Assembly (NCBI GenBank): GCA_013151775.1
Contig: JAADHO010000166.1
Location: forward strand, 1 to 54,661
DNA from: Deltaproteobacteria bacterium
Lineage (GTDB): Bacteria > Myxococcota_A > Polyangia > Polyangiales > Houyiibacteriaceae
Length of the DNA stretch: 54,661 bases
Reading direction: 5' to 3'
Both the position numbers and the translations under genes were made by a program. Every line of letters starts with the position of its first letter. Within the stretch, counting starts at the first letter, position 1. Below the pieces are notes generated by a model. The model was not told the origin of the DNA, ran no database searches, and was given only the letters and a program-made list of their open reading frames with translations. Of this stretch, positions 16,744 to 39,642 are shown in pieces.

Positions 16744-19167
16744 TCAAGGCGCCGTCGAACGGCAGCAGCGGAAGCCGACGTTGGGCGCCCGGAAGGTGTC
16801 GCCGGCCACCTCGAAGGAGAACTGGCACTTCGTACCGCCGGAGAGGTCGTTGTACGAGCCTCCCCTCATGGGGTTCACGCCGGCGCTACGTGGAGCCGTC
16901 CATTCCTGGGCGTTGCCTGAGACGTCGTAGATACGCTGTGTCGCGGCAGCGCCCCAGCGCGCGTAACAGCTCGTCTCGGTGCCGGTCGCGAGGATGCCGT
17001 TCTGGATGCCCGGTGTGCCAGGGTCCACGTCGTTGTCGAAGCCGTTGCAGGTGTTGCCGGAGTAGGTCGTGCAGCTGCTCTGATAGCTCCACGTACAGGG
17101 CGTGCCTGCCGGTGTCTCGCAGGCTCGCTGCCATTCACTCTCGCTGCACAGCCGGCCCCCGACGGTCGCGCAGGCCGCGGCCGCCTCCGCGGGCGAGACA
17201 TTGGTCCAGGGCAGTCGGTTGGGATCGCTGCACGCGCGATGCGTGCGGCTGCCGCTGTCCGTCGAGGTCGAGTCGGGTCGGCTGGCTTCGTATTGGAACA
17301 CCCAACGCGTCGCGCCTCCACTCAAGGTGATGGGCACCCAATTCGCGGGTGCGTTGTTGTCGACCACTCCGTCGCAATCGTCGTCGGCGTTGTTGCATGT
17401 CTCGACGCCCGGCGCGGGCGCCGCGGGCGCGGTGCAGGTGACGCCGGTACCCGCGCCGTCGCAGACGAAGGCTCCCGTCCGAAGACAAGTGCCGAGCGCG
17501 CCGTTGTCGCAGGCGAGGCCGACGCTGGGGAAGGGGTCGTCGACCAGACCATTGCAGTCGTTGTCGAGGCCATCGCAGCGCGTCTCCGTGACCTCGTACG
17601 TGCCCGCCGGATAGCTGCACTGCCAACCGCTCGTGCCACCACAAGTCGGGCTCGTCCCTGCGCACACGCCGTTGGGGTTGCAGAAGGTCGCGGGAGGCGA
17701 GAGGCCGTCGTCGACGATGCCGTCGCAGTCGTCATCGAGCCCGTTGCAGACCTCCGCTCCGGTGAAGTCGCAGGCGTACTCGCAGCCGTCGGCCGCGTTG
17801 CCGTTGCGGTCCACGTAGCCCGGTGCGCACGCCCCCATGCTGCAGGTGCGCGCGGCACAGGTCGCCACGGCGTTCGGAAAAGCGCAGGTGTTGCCACAGC
17901 CTCCGCAGTTTCGTGGATCGTTCGTGAGGTCGAAGCCGTTGTCGACCACGCCATCGCAGTCGTCGTCGAGTCCGTTGCACGACTCGAGGGATGGACCCAC
18001 GGCGCCGAAGCAGCTCAAGCCGCCGCCTGAGCAGCGCAGCATGCCCGCCACGCATGCACCCGTCGCGATGCCGCAGCTCGCGCCGCCTCCGGGGTTTCCC
18101 TCGTCGATCGTGCCGTCGCAGTTGTCGTCGAGCCCGTTGCAGGTCTCGAGCGCGGGGCCTGTGCCGCCGCTGCAGACGAGCGCGCCGCCGGTGCAGAGCA
18201 TGGTGCCGGGACGACAGCTGCCCACGGAGAGTCCGCATAGCGCTCCGCCCTCGGGGTTTCCCTCGTCGACCGTGCCGTCGCAGTCGTCGTCGAGTCCGTT
18301 GCATGTCTCGGGCGTGGGACCCGTCGCGCCCTCGCAGGTCAAGGCGCCGCCGACGCAGTGCAGGATGCCGGACCCGCAGCTGCCCACGCTCGAGCCACAC
18401 GAGGCGCCGCCTCCGGGATCGCCCTCGTCGACCGCCCCGTCGCAGTTGTCGTCGCGCAGGTTGCACGTCTCGGCGCCCGTCGCGGTGCACGAGTACTCGC
18501 AACCCGTCAGAGGCACTCCGTCGACGTCGTAGTAGTTGGCGTCGCAGCTGCTCACGACGCAATCCCCCGCGACACAGGACGCGCTAGCGTGGGCGAAGCG
18601 ACAGGTGCGACCACAGCGCCCGCAGTTCATTGGATCCGTGAGCAGGTCGAAGGTCTCGTCAACCGTGCCGTCGCAGTTGTTGTCGCGCAGGTCGCACAGG
18701 GTCTCCACCGGCTCCGTGGCGATGCAGTGGACCTCGCAGCCGTCGCTGAGGTCGCCGTTGCGATCGAAGAAGCCCACGTCACAGCCCGACAACCCACAGC
18801 TGCTGGCGCTACACACGCCGAAGGCATGGGCGGGTGCGCAGACGTTCCCGCAGACGCCGCAGTTGTTCACGTCCGTGGAGGTGTCGATGCCCTCGTCGAT
18901 CATTCCGTCGCAGTCGTCGTCGAGCCCGTTGCAGATCTCGATGGCGCCGGCCACGCAGCCGTCCATGGCCGCGTGCGTGGCAGGGCCCGTGTCCGCCGAC
19001 CCGCCCTCCGCGTCCGTCTCCGCGTCTGTCTCCGCGTCCGCAGAGCCGGAGTCTGCACCCGCGTCGACGCTGCCGTCCTCGCAATCGAGGCAGTAGGGGT
19101 CGAGCGCACAGTTCGCTAGGAGCAGCGGCAAACAGGCCCACAGGCACGCGTGAAGGACGCGGTTCAT
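16744..19167 (-). CDS. lipoprotein with MopE-type repeats and FGE-sulfatase-like domain
   Basis: The ATG at 19167 overlaps the TGA of the upstream gene (ATGA) and opens a lipoprotein signal (L-P-L-L-L-A-N-C). An acidic D-A-E-T linker is followed by about nine repeats of the pattern C-N-G-L-D-D-D-C-D-G-x-x-D-E-G, the metal-binding motif of Methylococcus MopE-like proteins. The last 200 residues resemble the formylglycine-generating-enzyme/sulfatase-modifying fold: G-G-R-L-C-S-E-S-E-W-Q-R-A-C-E, D-V-S-G-N-A-Q-E-W-T, M-R-G-G-S-Y, and N-V-G-F-R-C-C at the end. In this family the fold can be catalytic or only a binding module, and which applies here is unclear. It is probably displayed on the cell surface with its coupled neighbour. 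Confidence 0.88.
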   Translation of the reverse strand: MNRVLHACLWACLPLLLANCALDPYCLDCEDGSVDAGADSGSADAETDAETDAEGGSADTGPATHAAMDGCVAGAIEICNGLDDDCDGMIDEGIDTSTDVNNCGVCGNVCAPAHAFGVCSASSCGLSGCDVGFFDRNGDLSDGCEVHCIATEPVETLCDLRDNNCDGTVDETFDLLTDPMNCGRCGRTCRFAHASASCVAGDCVVSSCDANYYDVDGVPLTGCEYSCTATGAETCNLRDDNCDGAVDEGDPGGGASCGSSVGSCGSGILHCVGGALTCEGATGPTPETCNGLDDDCDGTVDEGNPEGGALCGLSVGSCRPGTMLCTGGALVCSGGTGPALETCNGLDDNCDGTIDEGNPGGGASCGIATGACVAGMLRCSGGGLSCFGAVGPSLESCNGLDDDCDGVVDNGFDLTNDPRNCGGCGNTCAFPNAVATCAARTCSMGACAPGYVDRNGNAADGCEYACDFTGAEVCNGLDDDCDGIVDDGLSPPATFCNPNGVCAGTSPTCGGTSGWQCSYPAGTYEVTETRCDGLDNDCNGLVDDPFPSVGLACDNGALGTCLRTGAFVCDGAGTGVTCTAPAAPAPGVETCNNADDDCDGVVDNNAPANWVPITLSGGATRWVFQYEASRPDSTSTDSGSRTHRACSDPNRLPWTNVSPAEAAAACATVGGRLCSESEWQRACETPAGTPCTWSYQSSCTTYSGNTCNGFDNDVDPGTPGIQNGILATGTETSCYARWGAAATQRIYDVSGNAQEWTAPRSAGVNPMRGGSYNDLSGGTKCQFSFEVAGDTFRAPNVGFRCCRSTAP

Positions 19168-22100
19168 CGGCCACCCCGACGACGACGCCAAGCGGCCACC
19201 GCGAGCAACAAGAACATACCGAGGCCGCCGAGGCCGCCGCGACCGCCTGCGCCCGCTCCCGGCACGCCGCAGAGGCAGCCGCCTCCTCCCGTTCCGACCA
19301 CGCGGCGATGGGATCGAGTCGCGCCCGCGTCACCGGCGTCCACGGTCGAGGCGTCTCGTCTGCCGGCGTCGGGTGGCGTCGGCTCGCGAGCACACTCGCC
19401 GCGCTCGCAGACCTCGCCCGTCGGGCAGTGCAACGTGAGACAGGGATCGTCCACGCACGCTCCGCTGACGGGGCTGCACTCCGAACGCAGCGGGCAGCTC
19501 ACGTCGACGCAGAGACCGGGCGTGCAGCTTCCGTCGGCCGGGTCGCACACGTCACCGGCGTCGCAGCGAACGCCCGAGCAGGGATCCGCGCTGCAGAGAC
19601 CTGCGTGACAGAGCTCGCTCGGGGCGCACGTGACATCCGCGCAGCTCGGCTCGCAGCTGCCGAGGCGGCAGGCCTCCGTGGCTGCGCAGGTCACGCTCGT
19701 GCAGGGGTCGTCGGCACAGACGCCCGTGCCCGTGTCGCAGACTTGACCCGCGGGGCAACCGAGACCGCGGCAGCTGTCTTCCACGCAGCGACCGTTGGGA
19801 TCGGCGGGGTTGCAGACCTGGCCGCCCGGACAGCTCACGCCATCGCAGGGGAAGGTGCAGTTCATTCCTCGACAGACGCAGGTGGACACCTCGGCGTCGT
19901 CGGGCGCGCAGGCGATCAGCGTGCCGGAGAGCTGGGTCTCGGCCGCGCAGGCCACGTCGTCGCAAGGATCGGACACGCAGAAGCAGAGACCGGTGTCGGC
20001 GTCCACGCTGGGGCTGCGACCCGTCGGGCAGGTGAAGCCGAACTCGCTGTTGACGCACGGCAGCGCGCACTGGCAGTCGACGCAGGAGCTACCTGTGGGA
20101 CACAGGGAGCCACCGGCGGGTGGATCGTCCGGGCTGCCGTTGCAGTCGTTGTCGAGGCAGTCGCAGACCTCGGTCGTGGGCAAGACCTCGCCTACGCAGG
20201 CTTCGACGCCACCTACACATTGCAGCATGCCCGTCATGCACACCCCGACGTCGCTGCCGCAGCTGCCGCCCGAGGCGAGGCCATCGTCCACCACGCCGTT
20301 GCAGTCGTTGTCGAGCAGGTCGCAGATCTCCGAGCTGGGCCCGATGGCGCCGCTGCACACGAGCGTGCCGCTGGAGGCGTCGCATACGTTCACTCCGGGA
20401 GAGCATTCGCCCACGTCGGTTCCACAGGGAGCGCCCACGGCGATCCCGTCATCCGCGACACCGTTGCAGTCGTCGTCGATGGCGTTGCACACCTCCGCCG
20501 TGGGCCCCACGGCGCCTGTGCACGAGATGGCCCCGGCGACGCACGCTGTCGTGCCTGCGGTGCACGCGCCGACGTCCGTGCCGCAAGCGACGCCCGCGCC
20601 CGGGCTGCCCTCGTCGATCGTGCCGTCGCAGTTGTCGTCGATGCCGTTGCACAGCTCTGGCGTGGGCCCGATGGAGCCCGCACAGGTCAGCGCGCCTGCG
20701 CTGCAGGTCCGGGTGCCCGGTCGACAGGCGCCCACGGCGCTCGGACCGCAGGCCGCACCGCCACCCGGGTTGCCGTCGTCGATCAGTCCGTCGCAGTTGT
20801 CGTCGAGGCCATTGCACAGCTCGGGGCCACCACTGGTGCCGCCCACACAGGTCAAGGCGCCAGCGAGACAGCGCAGCGAGCCGGGCGTGCACACGCCGAC
20901 CGAGCTGCCACAGGCCGCGCCGCCACCCGGGTTGCCCTCGTCGGTGCTGCCGTCGCAGTCATCGTCGATGCCGTTGCAGACTTCGGCGCTGCCTGTCGTC
21001 GCCCCCACACAAATGCCCCAAGCGCCCGTCGAGCAGAGCTGTCGACCGGCCGTGCAGGCGCCGGTGGTGGATCCACAGGCGCGCGTGATGCCATCGATCA
21101 CTCCGTCGCAGTTGTTGTCCAAGCCATCGCAGATCTCCGGGCTCGCCCCGGCTCCACTGCACGCTCCCCATGCGCCCGCGGTGCAGATCTGAGTGCCCAT
21201 CGTGCACACGCCCGTGGTGCTGCCACACGCGCGATTGATTCCGTCGATGGTGCCGTCGCAGTCGTTGTCGATGCCGTCACAGATCTCCGGGCTCGGGATG
21301 CAGCCCGAGGTGCACACGCCGCCCTCGTCGATGATCCCGTCACAGTTGTCATCCAGCCCGTTGCAGACCTCGGCGGGTTTGGTGCAGAGGTCGCGCGCTG
21401 CGTGCCCGGCGGGCAGGTTGCAGTAGAGTGAAAAGCCCTCGTCGACGGTGCCGTCGCAGTTGTTGTCCACGCCGTCGCAGACCTCGCCGGGATCCGTGCA
21501 CAGGTCCCGCGCGGGGTGCGAAGGCAGGTCGCAGTAGAGCGGGAAGCCCTCGTCGATCAAGCCATTGCAGTTGTCGTCGCGCCCGTTGCAGACCTCGACC
21601 TTGATCGAGTCGGCGATGATCTGCGAGAAGGCGAGCGCGAGGGAGGTCTCGTCCGTGGCGTAGAAGCCGCCCACGGAGGGGGACGGATTGCCTGCGCCCG
21701 CTTGGGCGATGCGGTCGATCTGCGTGTTGGGGTCGCTGACGCCGAAGCCGATGGGGTAGGTCCGCACGTTCACGGGCGTACCGCCGACGTTGATGTTCCA
21801 CAGAGAGGTGGCGCCCGAGGCCGGGTTACCGCCGCAGGTTTCAGCGCCATCGGTCAGCAGGATGACGCTCACCGGGCGACAGCCGAGGTAAGGGTCGCCC
21901 ACGAGCGCCGTCTGCAAGTAGTCGCGCGCCGCGAGCAAGGCTCCCTGCAGCGGCGTGTTGCCTCCGCTCCGAAGCTCCACCGTGGAGCCCGTAGTCGCCG
22001 TGCACGAGCCGCAAGAGTAGTCGACCCAGTTGAGGATCTGAGGCTGGTTGCGCGCCGCGATGGGCACGAGGATCTGGCCCGCAGCGGCGGTGGCGTTGCA

Positions 22101-22487
22101 GACGGTGGTGCGGTCGCGGCAGCCGCAGGAGCCGGCGGTGCAGGGGGAGTTGCATGCGCGCCTGTTGCTGTAGTCCTGCTGGAAGCGCCCCAGGCCGAAG
22201 GTCACGTCGCCGTAGGAGTTCACCACCTGTTGGATGACACACTTGGCGTCGGACATGCGGCTCGCGGGCTGACCGCAGCTGTTGTTCCCGCCCGTCGTGC
22301 CTCGGCCCATGGAGCCCGAGGTGTCGACCATCACTAGAAAATAGGGGCTGATGGCGGTCTGTGCCCGCGCGCCAGAAGGCAGAGCGAAGCCGAGCGCGAA
22401 GAGGGAGCCGAGCATGGCCCAAACTGCCAGAGTTCGCTCGAGCTGGACAAAGGGTGACCGACCGACGAGCGTTTCGTGCAGTTTCAT
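19164..22487 (-). CDS. secreted vWA protein with MopE repeats and MYXO-CTERM-like tail
   Basis: This 1107-residue protein starts with a signal peptide ending in A-R-A-Q. A vWA domain follows (about 48-290) with MIDAS D-T-S-G-S-M-G at 55-61. Next come about eleven C-D-G-x-D-N-x-C-D-G-x-x-D repeats (about 300-780), each a likely Ca2+-binding loop, then a Cys-rich region with C-P-x-G-x-x-C segments. The end is G-G-C-L-C-G-V-P-G-A-G, a hydrophobic stretch G-M-F-L-L-L-A-V-A-A-W, and R-R-R-R, matching the MYXO-CTERM sorting signal with its invariant Cys. It is therefore probably anchored in the envelope and exposed. TGGAG stands about 9 bases before the ATG. The stop overlaps the start of the FGE-domain lipoprotein, so the two are likely made together. 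Confidence 0.9.
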   Translation of the reverse strand: MKLHETLVGRSPFVQLERTLAVWAMLGSLFALGFALPSGARAQTAISPYFLVMVDTSGSMGRGTTGGNNSCGQPASRMSDAKCVIQQVVNSYGDVTFGLGRFQQDYSNRRACNSPCTAGSCGCRDRTTVCNATAAAGQILVPIAARNQPQILNWVDYSCGSCTATTGSTVELRSGGNTPLQGALLAARDYLQTALVGDPYLGCRPVSVILLTDGAETCGGNPASGATSLWNINVGGTPVNVRTYPIGFGVSDPNTQIDRIAQAGAGNPSPSVGGFYATDETSLALAFSQIIADSIKVEVCNGRDDNCNGLIDEGFPLYCDLPSHPARDLCTDPGEVCDGVDNNCDGTVDEGFSLYCNLPAGHAARDLCTKPAEVCNGLDDNCDGIIDEGGVCTSGCIPSPEICDGIDNDCDGTIDGINRACGSTTGVCTMGTQICTAGAWGACSGAGASPEICDGLDNNCDGVIDGITRACGSTTGACTAGRQLCSTGAWGICVGATTGSAEVCNGIDDDCDGSTDEGNPGGGAACGSSVGVCTPGSLRCLAGALTCVGGTSGGPELCNGLDDNCDGLIDDGNPGGGAACGPSAVGACRPGTRTCSAGALTCAGSIGPTPELCNGIDDNCDGTIDEGSPGAGVACGTDVGACTAGTTACVAGAISCTGAVGPTAEVCNAIDDDCNGVADDGIAVGAPCGTDVGECSPGVNVCDASSGTLVCSGAIGPSSEICDLLDNDCNGVVDDGLASGGSCGSDVGVCMTGMLQCVGGVEACVGEVLPTTEVCDCLDNDCNGSPDDPPAGGSLCPTGSSCVDCQCALPCVNSEFGFTCPTGRSPSVDADTGLCFCVSDPCDDVACAAETQLSGTLIACAPDDAEVSTCVCRGMNCTFPCDGVSCPGGQVCNPADPNGRCVEDSCRGLGCPAGQVCDTGTGVCADDPCTSVTCAATEACRLGSCEPSCADVTCAPSELCHAGLCSADPCSGVRCDAGDVCDPADGSCTPGLCVDVSCPLRSECSPVSGACVDDPCLTLHCPTGEVCERGECAREPTPPDAGRRDASTVDAGDAGATRSHRRVVGTGGGGCLCGVPGAGAGGRGGLGGLGMFLLLAVAAWRRRRGGR

Positions 22488-27639: not shown

Positions 27640-28530
27640 TCAGATTGTGGTCGAGGTCGGGCAGTCCCACTCGGGAACGCTCCCCGCCGGGCAGTCACCG
27701 CAGGCGTTCGGCTCGACGATATCGCCACAGCCTCCGTCCGTCAGGATCGCGCGGCACGCGGCGCGGAAGGCGGGGACGTCGCTGGGCGGCTCGGCACCGG
27801 TTCCGGCGCTGTAGGCCGTGCAGGTGGACTGAGTCACGGAGCCGGGGGGACAGCCGCACTCGCTCGGCGCACCGACGTAGGCGCCGCAGCAACCGGGGCC
27901 GAGGTCCGTGTAGCATTCGTCGAGGGCCCTGGGCGGCCCTGCGTCCGAGGGCGGAATCGCCGCGTCCGAGGGCGGCACACCAGCGTCCGAAGGCACGCCG
28001 GAGTCTGCGCGCGGCACGCCGGAGTCTGCGCGCGGCACGCCAGCGTCTGTGGGCGGCACGCCGGCGTCGGAGACGGGCTCTTCTGAGGGCGGCGCCGGCG
28101 CTGGTCGGGTCGTCGTGCCGCAGCCGCAAGCCGGAGCGAAGCCGGCGCATTCGTACTCGCTGACGCTGCCCGCCGGGCAATAGCCGCAGACGTCGCCACC
28201 AAAGATCTGGTCGCCGCAGCAGCCCGAGCCCATGTCCTGATAGCAGCGGGCGGCCGGACCGATATCTTCACCCGGGCCCGACGGTCGCCTGGTCGGGGAG
28301 GTGCAGGGATCCGCGCAGCCAGCCGTCCGGCAGTCGGCGCGCTCGACCGTGCCGCTCGGGCAGACGTCACACACGGAGACCTCGCTGCCACGTCCATCGC
28401 AGCAGCCCAGGGTGTCCGTGACGAGGCAGACCTTGGTCATATCGCAGCGGTCGGGTGGCACCGAGTGGGAGTTGCTGCAGCCGAGCATCGGGAGAGCCAA
28501 GAGGGCCAAGAAGGAAAGTGCATTGCGCAA
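27640..28530 (-). CDS. Cys-rich lipoprotein with four C-C-G modules
   Basis: A TTG at 28530 with TGGAG about eight bases upstream gives a standard lipoprotein signal (N-A-L-S-F-L-A-L-L-A-L-P-M-L-G-C). Upstream ATGs at 28605 and 28581 would add a long polar leader and lack ribosome sites, but are possible. The mature protein has four related modules of the type C-Y-x-D-x-G-x-G-C-C-G ... C-G-x-C-P-x-G-S-V-x-x-x-x-C. A Pro/Asp/Ala/Gly linker with 21-bp tandem DNA repeats (G-V-P-R-A-D-S) lies between the second and third. Disulfide-stabilised modules on the cell surface are likely; the function is unknown. Confidence 0.78.
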   Translation of the reverse strand: MRNALSFLALLALPMLGCSNSHSVPPDRCDMTKVCLVTDTLGCCDGRGSEVSVCDVCPSGTVERADCRTAGCADPCTSPTRRPSGPGEDIGPAARCYQDMGSGCCGDQIFGGDVCGYCPAGSVSEYECAGFAPACGCGTTTRPAPAPPSEEPVSDAGVPPTDAGVPRADSGVPRADSGVPSDAGVPPSDAAIPPSDAGPPRALDECYTDLGPGCCGAYVGAPSECGCPPGSVTQSTCTAYSAGTGAEPPSDVPAFRAACRAILTDGGCGDIVEPNACGDCPAGSVPEWDCPTSTTI

Positions 28531-28612
28531 GGGGTCGCTCCAGGGATTGTGCCAAGTCGTGCCGAGGTGGCGCCAACGCATCGAGGTGTGCACGCGTCGT
28601 GCCAAGTGGCCC

Positions 28613-31570
28613 TCAGAACTCGCGACAACCCGGGGCGGGCTCGGCGCTGCCGAAGGAGTAGGGGCGGGCCTGCTTCACCACGAGGTCGCGCTCGGCCCCC
28701 ACGAGCTTGAACTCCACGTCCATCGCAAACCAACGATCCTCCTGAGCGGGGTCGAGGAGCGTTCGGAAGTGGTCGTGGATGGCCGCGAGCGTGCACGCGA
28801 TGCGGTCGGCCTCGGCGCCGCTCATGATGTCGTACGAGGTCAGGCTGCTGCGGTGCTGGTAGACCACGCGCGGCGATCGACCGAAGCGGTAGAGATACTC
28901 GTCGGAGCTCACGCCCGGAGCGGGGTTCGTCACGCTGGCCTCGCCGATCTGCACATTGAAGTAGTGCATGTCGCCTCGGTTCGGATCCAAGATGTTGCGA
29001 CTCACGCCGACGCCGTTGGCGGCCTCCGAACGGAAGGCCGCGTGGACGAGCACGCCCATGGCAACGGAGGACTGATCGATGTGGCCCATCTCGCGTTCGT
29101 CGTACGCGCGCTGCGTCCAGAGGCTCGCCCACACGGTGCGCAGCGCGTCCTCCACGTGCCGCTCGGGATCGTCGAGGGCGGCGCCCCGGGAGGTGTAGAG
29201 ACCGGCGCCGTTGAACTCGACCAGGTCCTCCGTGTTGCTGCTGCTTCGGAGGCGCACGCGGCGCGTGCCGTAGCGCGCCCGAATCGCGGCCTGAAGCTCG
29301 GTCAGGAGCGCCTCGTCGACGGGCTGCGCCATGATCCGATCACGCACGGCGCGCAAGCCTTCGCCGCGGATGCTCGGGTCGGTGCGGAACTCGGGACGGG
29401 CCATCTGACGCTCGAGCTCGGCTCGGGCGCCGCTCGCCTCGAGGTGGTCGAGGTAATACGCCACGGGCACGGCGAAGGCGTCGAGTGGCACCCGGACGGG
29501 CCCGCTGCAGGCCGCGCGCAGCGAGTCGACGCGACCGAGTTCGGCGAGCTGAGCCGCCTTGGCGCCCACGAAGGGGATGGCGTCGATGCCGAGGCCGGCG
29601 AGGGGCTGCAGGCCGCGGACGCTGGCGTCGACCCTCGGCGAGAGACGCGGGCCCGCAGGCCGGCGTGCATCCCAGAACGCCTCGGCCTCCGCGGCGCTCG
29701 CGGGCGCGAGGGAGAATCCGTCGTTGCGCACTTCGAAGCGCACGAGCGTGTCGAAGAGGGGCGTGAGCACCCGGTCCGAGCGCGCGTCACGCAGCCCCAT
29801 ATTCGGCGTCGAGCGACCGCGGCTCAGCACGTTCACGTGGGAGAGGGGCGTCTGGAACGCCTCCGTGATCAGGCCGCCGACCAGCGCGATGCGATTGGGC
29901 ACGTCGTCCGTGACCACGATGACGTCCTGACCGAGGGCGGCGCCCTGAAGCTCCGAGCCCGGGATGAAGCGCAGGACGCCGAAGCCTACGGCCGCGTTCA
30001 GAGGTTGCACGGTCTGATCGGTGAAGGGAGCGTTCTGAGTCACGACAGGCACCGTGCCCTCGATGGAGCGCAGCTTCTCGTTCTGCCCCGCACTCTGCGG
30101 TCGCAGCGCCAGCGCGCTCGGCTCGGGGACGTGAGCCGCCACGGTGAAGAAGGCGCGACGCATCTGTTCGGGCAGGATGTTGTCACCCGTCACGAACTCG
30201 AGCGTCCGCAGCTCCTCACTCGCGCCCACGTAGTGGGTGAGGGTCCCCAGCAGGTAGCGCCGCGTGTCGGTCGCCGTGTACTGCGCTCGGCTGAACTCTC
30301 CCCAACCGATCTGAAAGGCGGCGGCCTCCTCGGGCACGCAGCGATCGAGGGGCGCCAGGTGTTCGATGGCTTGGCGGACGAAGGTGTAGTGGAGATCCCA
30401 AGCGCTGGCCCCGAGCAGATGCACGACGTCTCCGGCGTCCATGTCGATGACGACCTTCACGGCCTGCACGCCGAGCGCCGTGCCGCCCGCCGCGAGGGCC
30501 TCGAAGTCGCCGGGAGTCCGCAGGTGACGCGCGCGCCCCGCCAAGGGACGCGCCGCCAGAGGCTCGCAGGCGTCGTTGACCGCGCCGGGGGTCTCGCCGA
30601 GGCAGAAGATGAAGCCCCGACTCCCAGACGTGCGCGCGAGCACGGCGCCCTCGGGCCAGGCCATGAAGTCGACGCGCTCCTGCGCCTCCTCGAGACCGAG
30701 CTCGAACACGGTCGCGACGCCTTCGAACTCGTCCGTGGCCTCGATCGCGGCGACGTCCTCAGCGGTCACCGGCACGACCAGCCGCTCCCCGGGTGCGAGC
30801 TCGGCGACGGGCCAGGTCAGGGCGACGCCTTCCAGAACGCTGGGCCAAGGCAGGCCTGGTCCGTGGGGCGCCAAGCGGATCTCGTAGTCCGCGAGGGCGA
30901 GCGTCGCGTCGCTCCGATTCTCGATCTCGACGAAGGACGCGGGGGAGAGGGCGAGCTCCGTGATCACGAGGGGGCCCGTCGCGACCGGCCAGGGATCCGG
31001 CCACTCGTAGTCCGCGAAGGGCGCGTCCGTGATGGGCGGCGGAGGGGGCAACCCACAGCTGTCCGTGTTGCTGCGCTCCGGGCTCGGGTAGCGGCAGGGA
31101 AGGAACTCGCCCACACCGTCTGGAAAACGCGCGTAGGACTCGTTGACTGCGAGGGCGGGGAACTCGACGCGGTCGCGAACCCGACCTTGGCGATCCCAAA
31201 GGACCAAGCCTTCGCCGGCCGACGAGAGCTTGAAGGGCAGGTGCCGGTCACCTTGTTCGACGTCGTCGTCGGCCCAGAAGAGCACGCGCTCACCGGGCGC
31301 GAGGGGCCGCGCGGGCAGGCGATGACGCGGACCTCCGGGCTCGCTGAGGGAGTAGTCGTCGAGCCAGATGCGGGTGTCCGGGCTGGTGTTCACGAGCTCC
31401 ACCCAGTCGTCCGTCTCACCCACCTCATCGACCCAGACGCCGTCGTTCGCCGCCACGATCTCGTTGATCCGCAGAGGACCCGGGGTCACGTCCAGCGGGG
31501 CACAGGCCCCGAGCAGGGAAAGCAGAGCGAGGCCGAGGGTCAGCGGCGCGAGCTGGGAGAGGGGATGCAT
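28613..31570 (-). CDS. lipoprotein with lamin-tail domains and a glucan-water-dikinase-like catalytic half
   Basis: The 985-residue protein has a lipobox L-L-G-A-C near residue 23. A lamin-tail-like domain spans about 30-150 (L-R-I-N-E-I-V-A-A-N, D-D-W-V-E-L-V-N), and a second similar strand set starts near 205 (V-I-T-E-L-A-L ... F-V-E-I-E-N-R). The catalytic half has a phosphohistidine-like motif T-P-L-S-H-V-N-V-L-S-R-G-R (His578), then a PEP/pyruvate-binding ATP-grasp domain: V-G-A-K-A-A-Q-L-A-E-L (about 665), R-L-R-S-S-S-N-T-E-D-L and G-A-G-L-Y-T-S (about 775), and a late D-V-E-F-K-L-V-G with Q-A-R-P-Y-S. The His domain ahead of the ATP-grasp domain matches plant glucan water dikinases, not PEP synthase. 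An exported protein with an ATP-dependent fold is odd; it may be inactive or use the fold for binding. Confidence 0.85.
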   Translation of the reverse strand: MHPLSQLAPLTLGLALLSLLGACAPLDVTPGPLRINEIVAANDGVWVDEVGETDDWVELVNTSPDTRIWLDDYSLSEPGGPRHRLPARPLAPGERVLFWADDDVEQGDRHLPFKLSSAGEGLVLWDRQGRVRDRVEFPALAVNESYARFPDGVGEFLPCRYPSPERSNTDSCGLPPPPPITDAPFADYEWPDPWPVATGPLVITELALSPASFVEIENRSDATLALADYEIRLAPHGPGLPWPSVLEGVALTWPVAELAPGERLVVPVTAEDVAAIEATDEFEGVATVFELGLEEAQERVDFMAWPEGAVLARTSGSRGFIFCLGETPGAVNDACEPLAARPLAGRARHLRTPGDFEALAAGGTALGVQAVKVVIDMDAGDVVHLLGASAWDLHYTFVRQAIEHLAPLDRCVPEEAAAFQIGWGEFSRAQYTATDTRRYLLGTLTHYVGASEELRTLEFVTGDNILPEQMRRAFFTVAAHVPEPSALALRPQSAGQNEKLRSIEGTVPVVTQNAPFTDQTVQPLNAAVGFGVLRFIPGSELQGAALGQDVIVVTDDVPNRIALVGGLITEAFQTPLSHVNVLSRGRSTPNMGLRDARSDRVLTPLFDTLVRFEVRNDGFSLAPASAAEAEAFWDARRPAGPRLSPRVDASVRGLQPLAGLGIDAIPFVGAKAAQLAELGRVDSLRAACSGPVRVPLDAFAVPVAYYLDHLEASGARAELERQMARPEFRTDPSIRGEGLRAVRDRIMAQPVDEALLTELQAAIRARYGTRRVRLRSSSNTEDLVEFNGAGLYTSRGAALDDPERHVEDALRTVWASLWTQRAYDEREMGHIDQSSVAMGVLVHAAFRSEAANGVGVSRNILDPNRGDMHYFNVQIGEASVTNPAPGVSSDEYLYRFGRSPRVVYQHRSSLTSYDIMSGAEADRIACTLAAIHDHFRTLLDPAQEDRWFAMDVEFKLVGAERDLVVKQARPYSFGSAEPAPGCREF

Positions 31571-31727: not shown

Positions 31728-33041
31728 TCAGGCGTTGGCGCGCGCGTCAGGTGGCGACAGAGCGCGCATCAGCTCCCGCAGGCCCTCGACGATGGTTTCT
31801 GAGGGCGAGTCGCCGACCTCATAGCCGGCGCGGGCGCGGCGGGACTCCTGGCTGAGCCAGACTTGTGCGCGTTCACCATCCGGCGCGGCCAGCAAGAGCT
31901 CGGCCCGGGAGCCTGCGTCTCGCAGCAGCGTGCCCTCCCAACGCAGCGCGCCGAAGGGAGCCGCCGCGCGGAGGCGCTCGAGGCGTAGCGCGATGGAGCG
32001 CGCCACCTGATGCGGAGCGGGAGCTTCGTCCGCCGCGAGCAGCAGAGCGTCTTCGCGCGCCATGGCGTCTCGTGACGCCGTGAGCGACTCGTCGAGCAGG
32101 CGCGTCGGCGTCAGCGGCACGAGCTCGTCCATGCCGTAGAAGCGCGCGTAGGTCTCGAACACACCGCTGCAGCGCGGCTCGAGCACGCACTCGACGCAGC
32201 GCTCGCGCTTGAGCTTGTCGCGCCGCTTCACCAGGTATTTGTCCCAGGGCTCGCTCAGCTTGTCGTCGCCGTCGATGGCGATGGTCGCCGTGCGCTCGCC
32301 GTCGTGGTGGATGAAGGGCAGCAGCTCGGGGGCGACGCAGTAGGGCAGGTTGCCAATGTTCACGTCGAAGCCGGGCGAGAGCTGAGAGAAGCCTTCGATC
32401 ATGCGGGTCAGGGCCGGCACCATCTCCGTGTAGTCGGGGATGGTGCCTCTCAGCTCGTCCTCCGTGCGCTCACCGGCGTCGAGGGGGCGCATCATGTCGA
32501 GGTGAAGCTGCTCGACACCGAAGCGTGCGCAGAGCTCGGGGAAGGCGTCCACCGACTCGTAGTTGGAGCGCACGACGCACATGTTGATGCTGATGCGCTG
32601 CTCACGGGCGCGCAGGTTCTCGAGCGTGCGCAGGATGCGCGAGAAGGAGCCGTGCTTCTGCGTCGTGCGCTCGTGCGCCTCGCGGGTCGCGCCTTGGATC
32701 GAGATGCGGAAGTGGAAGGGCCCGCCCGTGCTCAGGATGCGGTCGACGAACTCGGCGTGGGCCGTCTTGACGCCGTTGGTGAAGATCACGATCTCCGAGA
32801 AGCCGAGACCCACGGCGTGCTCGAGCACGGCGAAGAAGCTCGGCTGCAGCGTCGGCTCGCCCCCGAGCAGGGTGAGCTTCTCGTGCCCCTCGGCGCGCGC
32901 CTCGTCGAGCTTGGCGAGCACCGGCGCCGCCGGCAGAGGCAACGCCTCACCCATGGCCGTGCGCTGCCCGCTCACGCAGAACACGCAGCGGTTGTTGCAC
33001 ATATGGCCGAGCTGAATCTCGACCTGCTTCTCCGGCTCCAT
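31728..33041 (-). CDS. radical SAM protein with SPASM-like C-terminus
   Basis: The 437-residue protein has the radical SAM motif C-N-N-R-C-V-F-C at residues 15-22 and L-L-G-G-E-P-T-L in the next strand. A C-terminal C-V-E-C-V-L-E-P-R-C-S-G is typical of SPASM-type auxiliary clusters used by peptide-modifying enzymes. The ATG at 33041 is chosen because an upstream extension would run into GNAT remnants in another frame, and because a copy of this start and its upstream 18 bp is repeated at 43101-43297. No ribosome site is seen, but TACACT lies seven bases before the ATG. No precursor peptide was recognised. The lamin-tail/dikinase gene lies 157 bp downstream. Confidence 0.9.
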   Translation of the reverse strand: MEPEKQVEIQLGHMCNNRCVFCVSGQRTAMGEALPLPAAPVLAKLDEARAEGHEKLTLLGGEPTLQPSFFAVLEHAVGLGFSEIVIFTNGVKTAHAEFVDRILSTGGPFHFRISIQGATREAHERTTQKHGSFSRILRTLENLRAREQRISINMCVVRSNYESVDAFPELCARFGVEQLHLDMMRPLDAGERTEDELRGTIPDYTEMVPALTRMIEGFSQLSPGFDVNIGNLPYCVAPELLPFIHHDGERTATIAIDGDDKLSEPWDKYLVKRRDKLKRERCVECVLEPRCSGVFETYARFYGMDELVPLTPTRLLDESLTASRDAMAREDALLLAADEAPAPHQVARSIALRLERLRAAAPFGALRWEGTLLRDAGSRAELLLAAPDGERAQVWLSQESRRARAGYEVGDSPSETIVEGLRELMRALSPPDARANA

Positions 33042-33048
33042 CGGGGGC

Positions 33049-33054
33049 AGTGTA
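33049..33054 (-). promoter_or_regulatory. candidate -10 box of a leaderless message (radical SAM gene)
   Basis: TACACT lies 7 nt before the ATG at 33041, with no Shine-Dalgarno sequence. The same box and spacing are kept in the truncated copy at 43287-43292. Confidence 0.5.
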
Positions 33055-33099
33055 GCGCATGCGCGCGTCTCCTCGGCACGGCTCCCAGCGGCAGGAGCA

Positions 33100-33410
33100 T
33101 CATCTGTGGGCGAGGCACGATGCGCGGGCCCCGAGCTCGTCCCGCATCTTCTCGCCGAGCTCGACGACGAAGCGCAGCATCGCCCGACCAAGCCCGCGAC
33201 CCTGCTCACTCTCCGCGACGGCCACGCGAGCCAGGCGCAGGATCGGGAGCGGATAGTGGCATCCTCCGACCACTCGGGAGATCGTCTGCGTCGAGCGACG
33301 CCGCCGCCAGCGTCGCGAAGGCCAAGATGCGCCCTTGCTCCGTGGCAATGTAGGTCACGCCGACATGATGGCGGAACTGATTCTGCCCGGCGTAGCGGCG
33401 GAAGGCTCAA
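33100..33410 (-). pseudogene. GNAT acetyltransferase remnant, frameshifted and truncated
   Basis: One frame reads F-R-R-Y-A-G-Q-N-Q-F-R-H-H-V-G-V-T-Y-I-A and on to A-D-D-L-P-S-G-R. After a frameshift near 33265, another frame continues with L-P-I-L-R-L-A-R-V-A-V-A and the acetyl-CoA loop Q-G-R-G-L-G-R-A. The order and wording match TacT-like GNAT toxins. The reading stops after M-R-D-E-L-G-A, so the last part of the fold is missing. The piece is fused to a helicase remnant at its start. It is a relic, not a functional gene. Confidence 0.75.
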
Positions 33411-33822
33411 CGCGCAAGAGTTCATACCATTGAGAGACGAGGTCGAGCGTAGGCGCTACCACCAGAGTCGCGCGCCGGCAGCGCTCCATGGCCATCACGG
33501 CTACGTGGGTCTTGCCCGAGCCCGTGGGCAACACCACGACGCCTCGCCCCCGCGCCTTCCACCAAGCATCCAGCGCCTCCTACTGAAGTGGACGCGGCTC
33601 ACGATGAACGAGTGAGCCGACCTCGAGGTTGGGATAGGCGCGCGCCTCGTCCTCGTACTCGATGCCGGCACCCCGCAGCGCCATGACGAGCCCGGCATAG
33701 CAGCGTGCGGGCGCTCGATAGCACTCCGTGCGCGCGTCCCAGACGTACTCTGCCGGGCGCACTTCGTCCGCGAGCTCGCCTACGAGCTCGAGGGTTCCAG
33801 AGACGAAGCGCAGCGTGAGCAC
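33411..33822 (-). pseudogene. superfamily II (XPB/Rad25-like) helicase remnant with in-frame stop
   Basis: From a GTG at 33822 the frame reads M-L-T-L-R-F-V-S-G-T-L-E-L and E-D-E-A-R-A-Y, ends P-R-P-L-Q, and meets an amber codon (TAG) at 33580-33582. The same frame then continues with E-A-L-D-A-W-W-K-A, the Walker A V-L-P-T-G-S-G-K-T-H and T-L-V-V-A-P-T-L-D-L-V-S-Q-W-Y. This is the N-terminal part of an XPB-like DNA helicase. Homology stops near 33411, where the GNAT remnant begins, so motifs II-VI are lost. Both the nonsense codon and the truncation show it is dead. Confidence 0.8.
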
Positions 33823-33895: not shown

Positions 33896-36800
33896 TCAAG
33901 GCAAGAAGCTCGTCACAAACGCGTCACGTCCACCCGCATTCGTCTGCCCGGGCCAACGGCGGTAGAGCGTGTTTCCCGCGAGATACACGAGACCGTAGCT
34001 GTCGATAGCCATAGAATAGACGCTATCGAACCCATCCGTGCCCAACTGCCAGCCGGTCATCGCGGTGCCAACCGGGCTATATCGCGCCACAAAGGCGTCA
34101 GTGAATCCGAGATTTGTTCCCGTGAGTGCGCCCGATGTATCCCCGGAGATATAGATGGTACCAACCGCATCCACGGCCAGCGAGCGACCGTAGTCGTCAC
34201 CTGCGGTTCCGAGTTGACGACCCCAGATAAGGCTACCGAGAACACTGTACTTTCGCACGAACACGTCATTGGCTCCGGCATTGGCAGCGTCGATACTACC
34301 GTTAGTGTATCCCCCGACGTACACATTTCCATTCCCATCCAACACCACCGACTGACAAATGTCACTGCCGGAACTGCCGAATTGCTGCGTCCAGAGCAAG
34401 CCACCGCTGCTCGTGTACTTACGAATGAACACATCCCATCCGCCGAGATTAGCCCCCTCAAGTGCGCCTGTGGTCTGGCCGCCAACGTAAACGTTGCCGC
34501 TAGCATCCACCGCCACGGTTTGTCCAACATCGGCAGAAGCAAGTCCAAACTGGCGCCCCCAGACCAACACACCTGCATTGGTGTACTTACGAACAAATAC
34601 GTCTTCAAGGCCAGCAGCTGCCCCATCGAGTGCCGAAGTCGTAGACCCTGCAATGTACAGGTTCCCTGCCGAATCCAACGCGATAGAGTTGGCAACATCA
34701 CTTGGAGGCGGAGATGTCCATGGAGCTCCAAACTGTTGACTCCAAACCAACACACCGGTGCTACTGTACTTGCGTGCGAATACATCCCATCCTCCAAGAT
34801 TACCGGAATCCAACGAACCGGCCGTCCTGCCGACAACGTATGCACTGCCCACGGCATCCACCACTAACTGTAACGCCTCATCCTGCGTCCAGGTTCCAAA
34901 CTGACGCGTCCACAATACGTTTCCTAAATCGTCGTACTTACGTATAAATGCATCTTCATTACCAGCATTTGTACCTACAATAGATCCGCGAGTGTAACCT
35001 ACGACATAGACATTTCCACTTCCATCGACTGCAACGGAGCGACCAAAATCGTCGCTGGTGGTGCCAAACTCTCGTGTCCACGGCAATCCACACGAGCTTC
35101 CTCCCGACCGAGGTACATAACCGGCAGCACATGTACCACAGCTCTGATCTGACGCTGTGGTGCAGACTATCTGTACGCAGTTGGCAATGCCGATCGGGCT
35201 GCAGCTCGCACACACGCGATCCGACGCCGACGTGGGCGCGACGCTCTCGTAGCTACCGGCACTGCATGTGCTCCACGCGGTGCAGCTCGAGGCGTTGGTC
35301 GTGGCACTGTATTCGTTCATCGGACACACCGTGCAGGTGCGGTTTGCGCTCGCTGACGGCGTGTTGCTCACATAGGTGCCAGCACTGCATGTGCTCCAAA
35401 CGGTGCAGCTCGTCGCGTTGCTCGCCGTGTTGTACTGGCCCGCTGCACACGCAGCACAGGTCCGGTCGCTCGTCGACGTTCCCCAGCTCGTCACGTAGGA
35501 GCCCGCGCCGCAGCTCGTCCACGACGTGCAGCTCGTCGCATTCGTCCCCGCGCTATACGCGCCTACACCGCACACCGAGCACGTCCGGTCGCTCGTCGAC
35601 GTTCCCGAGCTCGCCACGTACTCGCCCGCGCCGCAGCTCGTCCACCCAGTGCAGCTCGTCGCGTTGGCGCCGCTGCTGTAGGTCCCCGCAGCGCACGCGG
35701 AGCATGTCCGATCCGTCGTCGCGCTCCCCGCGCTCGTCACGTAGGAGCCCGCGCCACAGCTCGTCCACGACGTGCAGCTCGTCGCGTTCGTCCCCGCGCT
35801 ATACGCGCCAGAGGCGCACGCAGCACAGGTCCGGTCGCTCGTCGACGTTCCCGAGCTCGCCACGTACTCACCCGCAGCACAACTCGTCCACCCAGTGCAG
35901 CTCGTCGCGTTCGTCCCCGTGCTGTACGCGCCCGCAGCGCACGCGGAGCATGTCCGATCCGTCGTCGACGTCCCCGCGCTCGCCACGTAGGAGCCCGCGC
36001 CGCAGCTCGTCCACGACGTGCAGCTCACGGCGTTCGTGCCCGCGCTGTACGCGCCAGAGGCACACGCAGCACAGGTCCGGTCGCTCGTCGACGTCCCCGC
36101 GCTCGTCACGTAGGAGCCCGCGCCGCAGCTCGTCCACGAAGTGCAGGTCGTCGCATTCGTGCCCGCGCTGTACGTGCCCGCGCCGCACGCCGAGCACGTC
36201 CGATTCGTCGTCGCGCTCCCCGCACTCGTCACGTACTCGCCCGCGCCGCAGCTCGTCCACGCGCTGCAGCTCAGCGCGTTGGCGCCGCCGCTGTACGTCC
36301 CCGCAGCGCACGCGGAGCACGTCCGATTCGTCGTCGTGCTCCCCGCGCTCGTCACGTACTCGCCCGCGCCACAGCTCGTCCACGAAGTGCAGCTCAGCGC
36401 GTTCGTGCCCGCGCTGTACGTGCCCGCGCCGCACGCCGAGCATGTCCGGTCACTCGTCGACGTTCCCGAGCTGGTGACGTACTCACCCGCAGCACAACTC
36501 GTCCACCCAGTGCAGCTCGTCGCGTTCGTACCCGCGCTGTACTCACCCACAGCGCACGCCGAGCACGTCCGGTCACTCGTCGACGTTCCCGAGCTGGTGA
36601 CGTAGGAGCCCGCGCCGCAGCTCGTCCACGCAGTGCAGCTCAGCGCGTTCGTTCCCGTGCTGTACTCACCCACAGCGCACGCCATGCACACGCGATCCGT
36701 CGTCAACGTCCCCGCGGTCGACACGTACTCACCCACAGCGCACGTGGTCCATGCAGTGCAGCTCAGCGCGTTCGTCCCCGCGCTGTACTCACCCGTAGCG

Positions 36801-39040
36801 CAAGCACCACACGTCCGGTCGCTCGTCGACGTCCCCGCGCTCGTCACATACTCGCCCGCGCCGCACGTCGCCCACGCGCTGCAGCTCAGCGCATTCGTCC
36901 CCGTGCTGTACTCACCCACAGCGCACGCCATGCACACGCGATCCGTCGTCGACGTCCCCGCGGCCGACACGTACTCACCCACAGCGCACGTCGTCCACGG
37001 AGTGCAGCTCAGCGCGTTCGCCCCCGCGCTGTACTCACCCGTAGCGCACGCCATGCACACGCGATCCGTCGTCAACGTCCCCGCCGCCGACACGTACTCA
37101 CCCACAGCGCACGTGGCCCATGCAGTGCAGCTCAGCGCGTTCGTACCCGCGCTGTACTCACCCGTAGCGCACGCCATGCACACGCGATCCGCCGCCGCGC
37201 TGCCCGCACTCGTCACGTAGGAGCCCGCACCGCACGTCGTCAACGACGTGCAGCTCAGCGCATTCGTCCCCGTGCTGTACTCACCCACAGCGCACGCCAT
37301 GCACACGCGATCCGTTGTCGCGTCCCCAGCGCTCGCCACATACTCGCCCGCACCGCACGTCGTCCACGCAGTGCAGCTCAGCGCATTCGTCCCCGTGCTG
37401 TACGCGCCCGCAGCGCACGCCGAGCACGTCCGATCACTCGCCGCGCTGCCCGCGCTCGTCACATAGGAGCCCGCACCACAGCTCGTCCACGCAGTGCAAC
37501 TGACCGCGTTGCTCCCCACGCTGTACGCGCCCGCAGCGCACGCCGAGCACGTCCGATCGCTCGTCGCGTCCCCAGCGCTCGCCACATACTCGCCCGCGCC
37601 GCACATCGTCCACACGGTGCAACTGACCGCGTTGCTCCCCGCGCTGTACTCACCCACCGCGCACGCCATGCACACGCGGTCGGTGACGGCGTCTCCCTCA
37701 CTCGTCACATAGCTGCCGACGGAGCAGGTCGTACGCGCTACGCACACGGTCGCCGGGTCTGCGTCGTCGTCCCAGGTGCCGTCGCCGCTGTCGCACGCGA
37801 CCACGGGCGCTGTGTCGCCCGCGCAGTACTCGCCCACCGCACAGGGTTCACAGGTTGGTGCGGACGTGGCGGTGCCGGGAGCGGTCTGCAGCGTGCCCGG
37901 CGCGCATGCGCCCACGTCTACACACACCGATTGATTCGCCCCCGATGTGTACGTCCCCGCTGCACACGTCGCGCATGTGCGGTCGCTCGACGTCGTGCCG
38001 GCAGCGCTCACGAACTCACCCGCAACGCAGTCACTCCACAGATCGCAAGTCGGCGTGTTCTCTGCCGTACTGAAGCTCCCGCTCACGCATGCGGCGCAGG
38101 TCTGGTCCGCCGTCACGGACCCTGAGGTCGCCACGGACTCACCTGCCGCACACACGGTCCATGGGGCGCAGCTCGTCGCATTCGCTGTCGTACTGTACTC
38201 GCCGCTCGCACAGGCTGCGCACGTCCTATCCAACGTCGCCGAGGGCGTGTTGCTCGCATACGAGCCCGGCGTGCACTCGCTCCATACTGCGCAACTCATC
38301 GCGTTCTCGGCCGTGCTGAAGCTCCCGTCCCCGCAAGCCTCGCACACGCGATCGGTCGTCGCGTCGCCTTCGGTCAGCACCGCGCTGCCCGCCGCACAGA
38401 GGGTGCGGTCCGCACACGCCGTGGACGGATCCGCGTCGTGATCCCAAGTGCCGTCACCGCACGCCATCCGCGGCACATCTCCACCCGCGCAGTATTCGCC
38501 CACCGCGCAGGGCTCGCACACGGCGGCTGTCGTCGATGTCACGGGAGCGGTCTGCTCAGTCCCTGGCGGGCAATCGTCCGCGGTGACGCACATCGACTGA
38601 TTCGCGTCCGTCGTGTAGGTCCCCGCTTCGCAATCCGCACAGGTCTGATCTGCGGCCGCGCTGCCCTCCGTCGTCACGAAGGTGCCCGCCTCGCAAGCCG
38701 TCCACGGCGCACACTCGGTGGCGTCCACACCCGTGCTGAACGTCCCGCTCGCACAGCCCGCACACACTTGGTCACTGGTAGCGGTGCCGGCGGTCGACAC
38801 ATACTGACCCGCCTCGCAGGCGGTCCACCCCAAGCACACGGTCGCGGCGTCTGCGTCGTCATCATACGTGCCACTCGCGCAAGGCTCCGCGACGCCACCG
38901 TCACCCGCATCGCTCCCTCCATCACCAGCATCGAGCGCCGAACCATCGATCGGAACTGCTGGCTGCCCACCGCAGCCCGACGCAGCGCCCCACAGCGCGA
39001 TCACACCCACCGACCAAGCAAGAACCTTCGACAACCGCAT
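33896..39040 (-). CDS. giant lipoprotein with 41-residue Cys repeats and SBBP propeller
   Basis: The ATG at 39040 has GAGGTGG five bases upstream and gives a lipoprotein signal ending A-A-S-G-C; the product is 1714 residues. After a D-A-G-D-G-G linker come about ten diverged and then about twenty very similar 41-residue repeats of the form T-C-S-A-C-A-x-G-x-Y-S-x-G-T-N-A with three further conserved positions C-T-x-W-T-x-C, a TNF-receptor-like Cys pattern. The last 400 residues are about seven SBBP repeats (G-N-V-Y-V-x-G-Y-T, D-V-F-V-R-K-Y, L-W-x-R-Q-F-G) that should form a beta-propeller. The propeller DNA (about 33.9-35.1 kb) is visibly lower in GC than the rest, suggesting a separate origin. 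It is probably an adhesin or surface fibre. Confidence 0.9.
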   Translation of the reverse strand: MRLSKVLAWSVGVIALWGAASGCGGQPAVPIDGSALDAGDGGSDAGDGGVAEPCASGTYDDDADAATVCLGWTACEAGQYVSTAGTATSDQVCAGCASGTFSTGVDATECAPWTACEAGTFVTTEGSAAADQTCADCEAGTYTTDANQSMCVTADDCPPGTEQTAPVTSTTAAVCEPCAVGEYCAGGDVPRMACGDGTWDHDADPSTACADRTLCAAGSAVLTEGDATTDRVCEACGDGSFSTAENAMSCAVWSECTPGSYASNTPSATLDRTCAACASGEYSTTANATSCAPWTVCAAGESVATSGSVTADQTCAACVSGSFSTAENTPTCDLWSDCVAGEFVSAAGTTSSDRTCATCAAGTYTSGANQSVCVDVGACAPGTLQTAPGTATSAPTCEPCAVGEYCAGDTAPVVACDSGDGTWDDDADPATVCVARTTCSVGSYVTSEGDAVTDRVCMACAVGEYSAGSNAVSCTVWTMCGAGEYVASAGDATSDRTCSACAAGAYSVGSNAVSCTAWTSCGAGSYVTSAGSAASDRTCSACAAGAYSTGTNALSCTAWTTCGAGEYVASAGDATTDRVCMACAVGEYSTGTNALSCTSLTTCGAGSYVTSAGSAAADRVCMACATGEYSAGTNALSCTAWATCAVGEYVSAAGTLTTDRVCMACATGEYSAGANALSCTPWTTCAVGEYVSAAGTSTTDRVCMACAVGEYSTGTNALSCSAWATCGAGEYVTSAGTSTSDRTCGACATGEYSAGTNALSCTAWTTCAVGEYVSTAGTLTTDRVCMACAVGEYSTGTNALSCTAWTSCGAGSYVTSSGTSTSDRTCSACAVGEYSAGTNATSCTGWTSCAAGEYVTSSGTSTSDRTCSACGAGTYSAGTNALSCTSWTSCGAGEYVTSAGSTTTNRTCSACAAGTYSGGANALSCSAWTSCGAGEYVTSAGSATTNRTCSACGAGTYSAGTNATTCTSWTSCGAGSYVTSAGTSTSDRTCAACASGAYSAGTNAVSCTSWTSCGAGSYVASAGTSTTDRTCSACAAGAYSTGTNATSCTGWTSCAAGEYVASSGTSTSDRTCAACASGAYSAGTNATSCTSWTSCGAGSYVTSAGSATTDRTCSACAAGTYSSGANATSCTGWTSCGAGEYVASSGTSTSDRTCSVCGVGAYSAGTNATSCTSWTSCGAGSYVTSWGTSTSDRTCAACAAGQYNTASNATSCTVWSTCSAGTYVSNTPSASANRTCTVCPMNEYSATTNASSCTAWSTCSAGSYESVAPTSASDRVCASCSPIGIANCVQIVCTTASDQSCGTCAAGYVPRSGGSSCGLPWTREFGTTSDDFGRSVAVDGSGNVYVVGYTRGSIVGTNAGNEDAFIRKYDDLGNVLWTRQFGTWTQDEALQLVVDAVGSAYVVGRTAGSLDSGNLGGWDVFARKYSSTGVLVWSQQFGAPWTSPPPSDVANSIALDSAGNLYIAGSTTSALDGAAAGLEDVFVRKYTNAGVLVWGRQFGLASADVGQTVAVDASGNVYVGGQTTGALEGANLGGWDVFIRKYTSSGGLLWTQQFGSSGSDICQSVVLDGNGNVYVGGYTNGSIDAANAGANDVFVRKYSVLGSLIWGRQLGTAGDDYGRSLAVDAVGTIYISGDTSGALTGTNLGFTDAFVARYSPVGTAMTGWQLGTDGFDSVYSMAIDSYGLVYLAGNTLYRRWPGQTNAGGRDAFVTSFLP
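35216..37676 (-). repeat. about twenty tandem 123-bp coding repeats
   Basis: The DNA coding for the 41-residue repeats recurs every 123 bp, with nearly identical blocks. The limits are estimated from the protein repeats. It can expand or shrink by recombination and may collapse in short-read assemblies. Confidence 0.85.
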
Positions 39041-39267
39041 CACGTCCACCTCGTTCGTCGTGCTCAGCGGCCCGATTCCGTACAGCAAACACTGCCCGGC
39101 ACAGTGACGACAAACGCGATGTTCCACCATCCCCCGAACAGGGGATGGTCGCGTACGCCAGCCACGTCGGCGGCGAATCGCGCTGAAGATTGCGACACCG
39201 CGCCGCTGCGAGTCTGTGGACCTGACGGGATGTCCGCACTTCCAGCGATCTCCGTACCGGAACGCGC

Positions 39268-39273
39268 TAGAGT
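39268..39273 (+). promoter_or_regulatory. candidate -10 box of a leaderless message
   Basis: TAGAGT lies 6 nt (CTCGCC) before the ATG at 39280, with no Shine-Dalgarno sequence. The same spacer CTCGCC precedes the start at 43991. Confidence 0.45.
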
Positions 39274-39279
39274 CTCGCC

Positions 39280-39642
39280 ATGCTCGGGCCCACCGACTGG
39301 CGCTCATGTGTCGCGCCTCGCGCTCTCGTCCTGCTCGCGCTGGCGATCTGCCTGCTGCCGACGGCACGGGTGTCAGGCCAACCCACGCCCGCAGACAGCG
39401 CACGGGACCGCGTCGACCGGCTCGATGCATCCTTGGACGCGAAGCTCTCTGAACTCGCAGATGCGGAAGTCGGTGCGCCGGCGCGCTTGCTGGCCGACGC
39501 GCATCGCATCGACGCCGAGCGCATCAACGCCATCGAGAGCCTGAACCGCGACGCTCACGAACAGGTCATGGGCGTGGGTCTGCGCGGCCGACGCGAGCTG
39601 GAACGCGAGACCACACTGCTCGCGCTTGGCGGACCCATCTAG
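39280..39642 (+). CDS. small secreted helical protein
   Basis: The 120-residue product has an N-terminal signal peptide (A-L-V-L-L-A-L-A-I-C-L-L-P, cleavage near V-S-G-Q). A charged stretch follows with heptad-like spacing (R-V-D-R-L-D-A-S-L-D-A-K-L-S-E-L-A-D), which suggests a coiled coil. No family is recognised. It diverges from the giant lipoprotein gene across about 240 bp and faces the transposase remnant. The start is supported by the TAGAGT box and the signal peptide rather than by a ribosome site. Confidence 0.65.
   Translation: MLGPTDWRSCVAPRALVLLALAICLLPTARVSGQPTPADSARDRVDRLDASLDAKLSELADAEVGAPARLLADAHRIDAERINAIESLNRDAHEQVMGVGLRGRRELERETTLLALGGPI

Follow-up and report, generated by a model that had tools for sequence, protein, structure and literature searches.

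The gene analysed here lies on contig JAADHO010000166.1 of a deltaproteobacterial genome assembly, within a stretch of 54,661 nucleotides (hereafter the window), and encodes a protein in which lamin-tail domains (LTDs) are joined to a catalytic half that resembles plant glucan, water dikinases (GWD). It raises the question of whether such a protein could work as an enzyme beyond the cytoplasm and, if so, on which substrate. ATP is scarce outside the cytoplasm, which counts against an extracytoplasmic dikinase, and the literature examined describes dikinases of the superfamily as intracellular enzymes.

The open reading frame was accepted as a real gene because of its strong coding periodicity (GC at codon positions 1/2/3 of 0.73/0.49/0.88), which is typical here, and of full-length homologues with 48-56% identity to its 985-amino-acid product. 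The domains follow one another as lipobox, LTD 1, probable LTD 2, N-domain, phosphohistidine domain and C-terminal ATP-grasp domain, with the features and their basis as listed:

28613..31570, reverse strand: whole gene of the LTD-dikinase lipoprotein, 985 aa (ATG start, coding periodicity, full-length homologues)
31502..31570, reverse strand: signal peptide and lipobox, residues 1-23, LLGAC with Cys23 (read from the sequence)
31160..31483, reverse strand: lamin-tail domain 1, residues 30-137 (Pfam PF00932, E 5.4e-15)
30770..30982, reverse strand: probable lamin-tail domain 2, residues ~197-267 (PF00932, E 1.6e-4 for the fragment alone, below the cut-off)
29996..30538, reverse strand: family-specific N-domain, residues 345-525, putative acceptor or substrate domain (conserved in 63/63 homologues)
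29636..30028, reverse strand: phosphohistidine (swivel) domain, residues ~515-645 (hhalign of the family; GWD1_pHisD in relatives)
29837-29839, reverse strand: codon of His578, motif QTPLSHVNVLSR
28646..29572, reverse strand: PPDK_N-type ATP-grasp domain, residues 667-975 (Pfam PF01326, E 5.1e-21)
within 28646..29572, reverse strand: ATP-grasp catalytic positions Lys671, Arg775, Ser794, Asp951/Glu953, Gln967 and Arg969 (mapped from RPH and PEP synthase)
27643..28593, reverse strand: Cys-rich putative lipoprotein, possible operon partner (same strand; no Pfam match)

The first-pass annotation, made from the sequence alone, had described an exported lipoprotein in which a lipobox is followed by two LTDs (one clear, the other probable), a phosphohistidine motif around His578 and a C-terminal PPDK-type ATP-grasp domain. 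The domains proved to be real by Pfam and family profiles, the lipobox supports the reading as an exported lipoprotein, and the order of the two catalytic domains was upheld. The first LTD lies well above the curated cut-off of PF00932 (56.1 bits for the whole protein versus 34.3) and the second below it, so that the latter stays probable only. To this was added the N-domain of about 180 residues that precedes the phosphohistidine domain and had not been recognised before. It should be added that AlphaFold, run on the core of the window protein and of homologue L007 with these two sequences only, returned a pLDDT of 35.

By its sequence, MHPLSQLAPLTLGLALLSLLGAC, the N-terminus has the look of a lipoprotein signal, the lipobox Cys being Cys23. 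The strict lipobox pattern fits 45/61 family members from Myxococcota, as compared with a background rate of 6/255 internal protein stretches, and most of the remaining members show a lipobox by eye or are truncated by the contig end. Both the LLGAC lipobox and the recurrence of a lipobox in relatives support the predicted export. Inner-membrane lipoproteins of Myxococcus xanthus tend to carry Lys at position +2 (PMC3222651); since the window protein has Ala there, the outer membrane would be the simplest guess for its location, by extrapolation from M. xanthus.

The match of the C-terminal half to PF01326 is significant and covers profile positions 3-313 of 328. In an alignment with solved PEP synthase and RPH chains, Lys671, Arg775, Ser794, Glu953, Gln967 and Arg969 fall on ATP-grasp positions, Lys22, Arg117, Thr136 and Glu297 of RPH being aligned to Lys671, Arg775, Ser794 and Glu953, correspondingly. 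Studies of RPH mutants revealed that activity needs Lys22, Arg117 and Thr136, with Glu297 being dispensable (PMC4844700). The ATP-contacting Arg, Glu and Gln residues and His578 are all retained in the window protein. Conservation was counted in 63 homologues found by profile, many of them only about 35% identical: His578, Lys671, Arg775, Ser794, Gln967 and Arg969 are kept in 61, in which position 953 is occupied by Glu (59 proteins) or Asp (two).

The two exceptions, L053 (G068:C194:1-3279) and L054 (G108:C70:156700-175600), are LTD-fused paralogues from genomes that each also carry an intact dikinase copy. Both still have open frames and the N-domain residues His394, Arg437 and Asp463, while His578 is replaced by Glu, Lys671 by His, Arg775 by Trp, Ser794 by Pro and Glu953 by Ser or Gly, and the QAR stretch is gone. 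They look like conserved pseudoenzymes; with almost the whole catalytic set missing from both, some non-enzymatic function is apparently present in the LTD-fused clade, which counts against a purely enzymatic reading. Their existence makes the integrity of the window copy more telling. The initial reading had left the choice between a GWD-like dikinase and its inactive descendant; the GWD-like domain order and motif stand, but inactivity of the window copy is unlikely, because none of the residues checked is missing and 61/63 homologues retain the set.

The phosphohistidine domain became apparent at the level of the family. The window protein alone matched neither PF00391 nor PF22973 in Pfam, whereas a profile built from residues 515-645 of 61 homologues aligned by hhalign to PEP-utiliser domains encoded in these and related genomes with E 1.7e-7 and a probability of 93.8, placing their catalytic His on His578. 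A profile of the N-domain, used as negative control against the same PEP-utiliser domains, gave E 0.55. Furthermore, GWD1_pHisD (PF22973) matched 10/28 relatives (best E 2.8e-4) and none of the 14 control genomes; in the members shown these matches cover profile positions ~43-113 and stay under the 27-bit cut-off. Some PEP-utilisers in the sampled genomes carry a GGPLSH motif.

Residues 345-525 found no Pfam match and nothing significant among PDB sequences. His394, Arg437 and Asp463 are identical in 63/63 homologues, including the apparent pseudoenzymes and two Streptomyces proteins. In known dikinases (RPH, HpeHI), a domain that binds the acceptor is required in addition to those for His and ATP-grasp. 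The N-domain occupies the position where such a domain is needed and, by this position and its conservation, we propose it as the likely acceptor site.

With GWD and PWD, which are still without experimental structures (PMC12892837), the comparison was made via domain order, motif and Pfam model. The likeness consists of a C-terminal PPDK-type ATP-grasp domain that immediately follows the phosphohistidine domain, the LSHV-type His motif and the weak GWD1_pHisD match in relatives; the difference is that the window protein is bacterial, predicted to be an exported lipoprotein, and carries LTDs and a family-specific N-domain, with no starch-binding module found. RPH (PDB 5HV1, 5FBS) shares a three-part plan, with the ATP-grasp domain and its four matched residues, the swivel His and, if the N-domain is one, a separate acceptor domain, but it is cytoplasmic, has the order ATP-acceptor-His, and its acceptor domain has no detectable similarity to the window protein. 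PEP synthase and PPDK have a homologous ATP-grasp domain (the best PDB sequence matches) and a His domain, whereas their order is ATP-His-PEP/pyruvate barrel, nothing in the window protein matches their C-terminal PEP-binding domain, and GGxT(S/C)H of PEP synthases stands against QTPLSH here. The two-component aromatic dikinases HpeHI, CreHI and PpsAB also combine an acceptor and His part (HpeH) with an ATP-grasp part (HpeI); they differ in being two cytoplasmic proteins with an RPH-like acceptor domain.

The breadth of the family was assessed by searching 189 Myxococcota genomes with the window protein. Matches at E<=1e-8 were present in 87 genomes, some of them to the LTDs only, and core matches at E<=1e-30, counted by best E, in 59. 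In most members the core (~345-975) stands alone as a probable lipoprotein of ~650-850 aa; one such unfused paralogue is encoded in the window's own genome (L003/L064, G000:C75), while the single congener available (81% complete) lacks fused and unfused copies alike. Beyond Myxococcota, homologues were found on two Streptomyces plasmids (WP_142270066.1 and WP_331760287.1). These comprise all three core domains with 28-31% identity over the matched part and the His, RRF and DT motifs of the N-domain; neither shows a signal peptide, an LTD or, by the strict pattern, a lipobox, and both look cytoplasmic. Their public annotation is the generic "PEP/pyruvate-binding domain-containing protein". On both plasmids (L043:4535-7911 and L044:4541-7914) an ATP-grasp gene, the dikinase homologue and an MFS transporter gene stand in a row, a candidate small-molecule modification cluster. 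No relative was found in the viral contigs searched, and phage records yielded two weak matches. Neither the dikinase lipoprotein family nor the LTD-PPDK_N fusion was reported in the literature search, outside which most subscription journals lay. Judged by these homologues, the window protein belongs to an undescribed large family of probable lipoproteins across Myxococcota.

The same LTD fusion was found in other Myxococcota, altogether at 10 loci in eight genomes, which form one clade in the maximum-likelihood tree (SH-aLRT 100); the members other than the window copy all belong to families f27 and f25. Such a patchy spread could stem from horizontal transfer or, alternatively, from loss in relatives. 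Moreover, 4/51 unfused loci (L056, L058, L061 and L092), which fall at three separate positions in the tree, have a stand-alone LTD gene that touches or overlaps the dikinase gene in the same orientation. The regions contain 7 LTD genes, of which about 1.6 would be expected to adjoin a dikinase on either strand (P 0.046 for at least 4); P was 0.004 for same-strand adjacency within the regions and 4e-6 when the density of LTD genes in the window's genome was taken as background. The dikinase family is thus associated with LTDs through both the fused clade and neighbouring genes.

The survey of neighbourhoods covered 60 dikinase loci. In the window, the frame at 27643..28593 on the reverse strand begins, according to which start codon is used, ~8-20 nt beyond the stop codon of the dikinase gene and may be an operon partner. 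Neighbours of the family dikinases are often lipoproteins, namely members of a Cys-rich family, recurrent SMP-30-like propellers and LTD proteins; a DUF1554-like protein adjoins the dikinase in three loci. The Cys-rich family, A4, has an invariant Cys pattern, an HG motif and no convincing Pfam match. It lies within two genes of the dikinase in 16 unfused and 0/10 LTD-fused loci and, by genome-wide search, occurs away from dikinases as well. Examples are:

L067:5011-6057, reverse strand: A4 member
L058:10463-11425, forward strand: A4 member
L092:9301-10392, reverse strand: A4 member

Considering these data, we regard it as rather probable that the window protein is a lipid-anchored, extracytoplasmic and catalytically competent dikinase acting on an envelope substrate. 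After export and acylation, ATP would be bound by the ATP-grasp domain and its beta-phosphate handed to His578 with release of AMP and Pi, the chemistry known from PEP synthase, RPH and GWD. Phospho-His578 would next be carried by the swivel domain to the N-domain, where an acceptor for the phosphate may be held in place by His394, Arg437 and Asp463; the LTDs would tether the dikinase to a partner in the envelope or matrix. Either a constituent of the envelope or a small molecule encountered beyond the cytoplasm would probably serve as acceptor. The analysis identified neither an ATP exporter nor another donor, and provision of extracytoplasmic ATP by leakage or prey lysis is speculation.

The GWD-like order, the LSHV motif and the GWD1_pHisD matches, confined to the family in our comparison with control genomes, could also be expected of a true bacterial glucan, water dikinase, exported and phosphorylating an alpha-glucan or another envelope polysaccharide with the LTDs as binding modules. 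However, these matches are sub-threshold where the cut-off is shown; neither CBM45, CBM20 or any other CBM family at E<=10 nor another glucan module was detected in 28 members; the recurrent neighbour families of the 60 loci, lipoproteins for the most part, include no obvious glucan enzyme; and the plasmid-borne Streptomyces row points to small molecules. We hold such an enzyme to be decidedly unlikely. The glucan substrate suggested by the first-pass annotation is unsupported, since no starch-binding module and no glucan gene were found; for the same lack of a starch-binding module the protein, whose likeness to GWD consists of domain order and His motif, is not filed as GWD.

The scarcity of ATP outside the cytoplasm bears on two further readings. 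It would suit a nucleotide-binding sensor or scaffold with ATP or a similar molecule as ligand and a part in signalling or in the organisation of the envelope, and so would the two LTD-fused paralogues that lost H578, K671, R775, E953, Q967 and R969 and kept H394, R437 and D463. Retention of the catalytic set in 61/63 homologues, including a His578 that would be needless for a pure sensor, nonetheless makes this role unlikely for the window protein. It would likewise suit a dikinase fold with a phosphate donor other than ATP, or with the phosphohistidine used otherwise, e.g. for condensation. RedH and PigC, prodigiosin ligases that represent superfamily members catalysing ligations, are indeed among the NCBIfam matches; yet these cover only the ATP-grasp domain and are far below the cut-offs, and the N-domain matches no Pfam family, so that we consider a different reaction or donor very improbable.

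If the proposed dikinase activity is true, many members of the phylum Myxococcota would carry out ATP-dependent phosphotransfer in their envelope. The new elements would be the type of acceptor domain, the recurrent partner lipoprotein and the natural inactive paralogues, which make the idea directly testable; the family also provides a bacterial set with GWD-like domain order. For many Myxococcota we propose, only tentatively, an extracytoplasmic ATP-driven phosphohistidine relay by a membrane-anchored dikinase with LTD and Cys-rich partner lipoproteins, a new acceptor-domain type and envelope or matrix targets, in which dead paralogues may be regulators.

Other genes of the window deserve mention in their own right. 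Upstream of the dikinase and on the same strand, positions 31731-33425 (reverse strand) encode a radical SAM protein (E 5.8e-20), the likely start of which is internal to the frame (MEPEKQVEIQLGHMCNNRC). An 1844-aa open reading frame with unusual codon-position GC follows at 33896-39430 (reverse strand); in it a lengthy series of Cys-rich repeats (GEYSAGTNALSCTAWT...) gives way to propeller-like ones. Two adjacent genes at 16747-22487 (reverse strand) are rich in Cu-binding MopE repeats, with 9-10 stretches each; one has an FGE-sulfatase domain and the second a weak VWA match, and homologues of the second gene are located near dikinases in L085 and L088.
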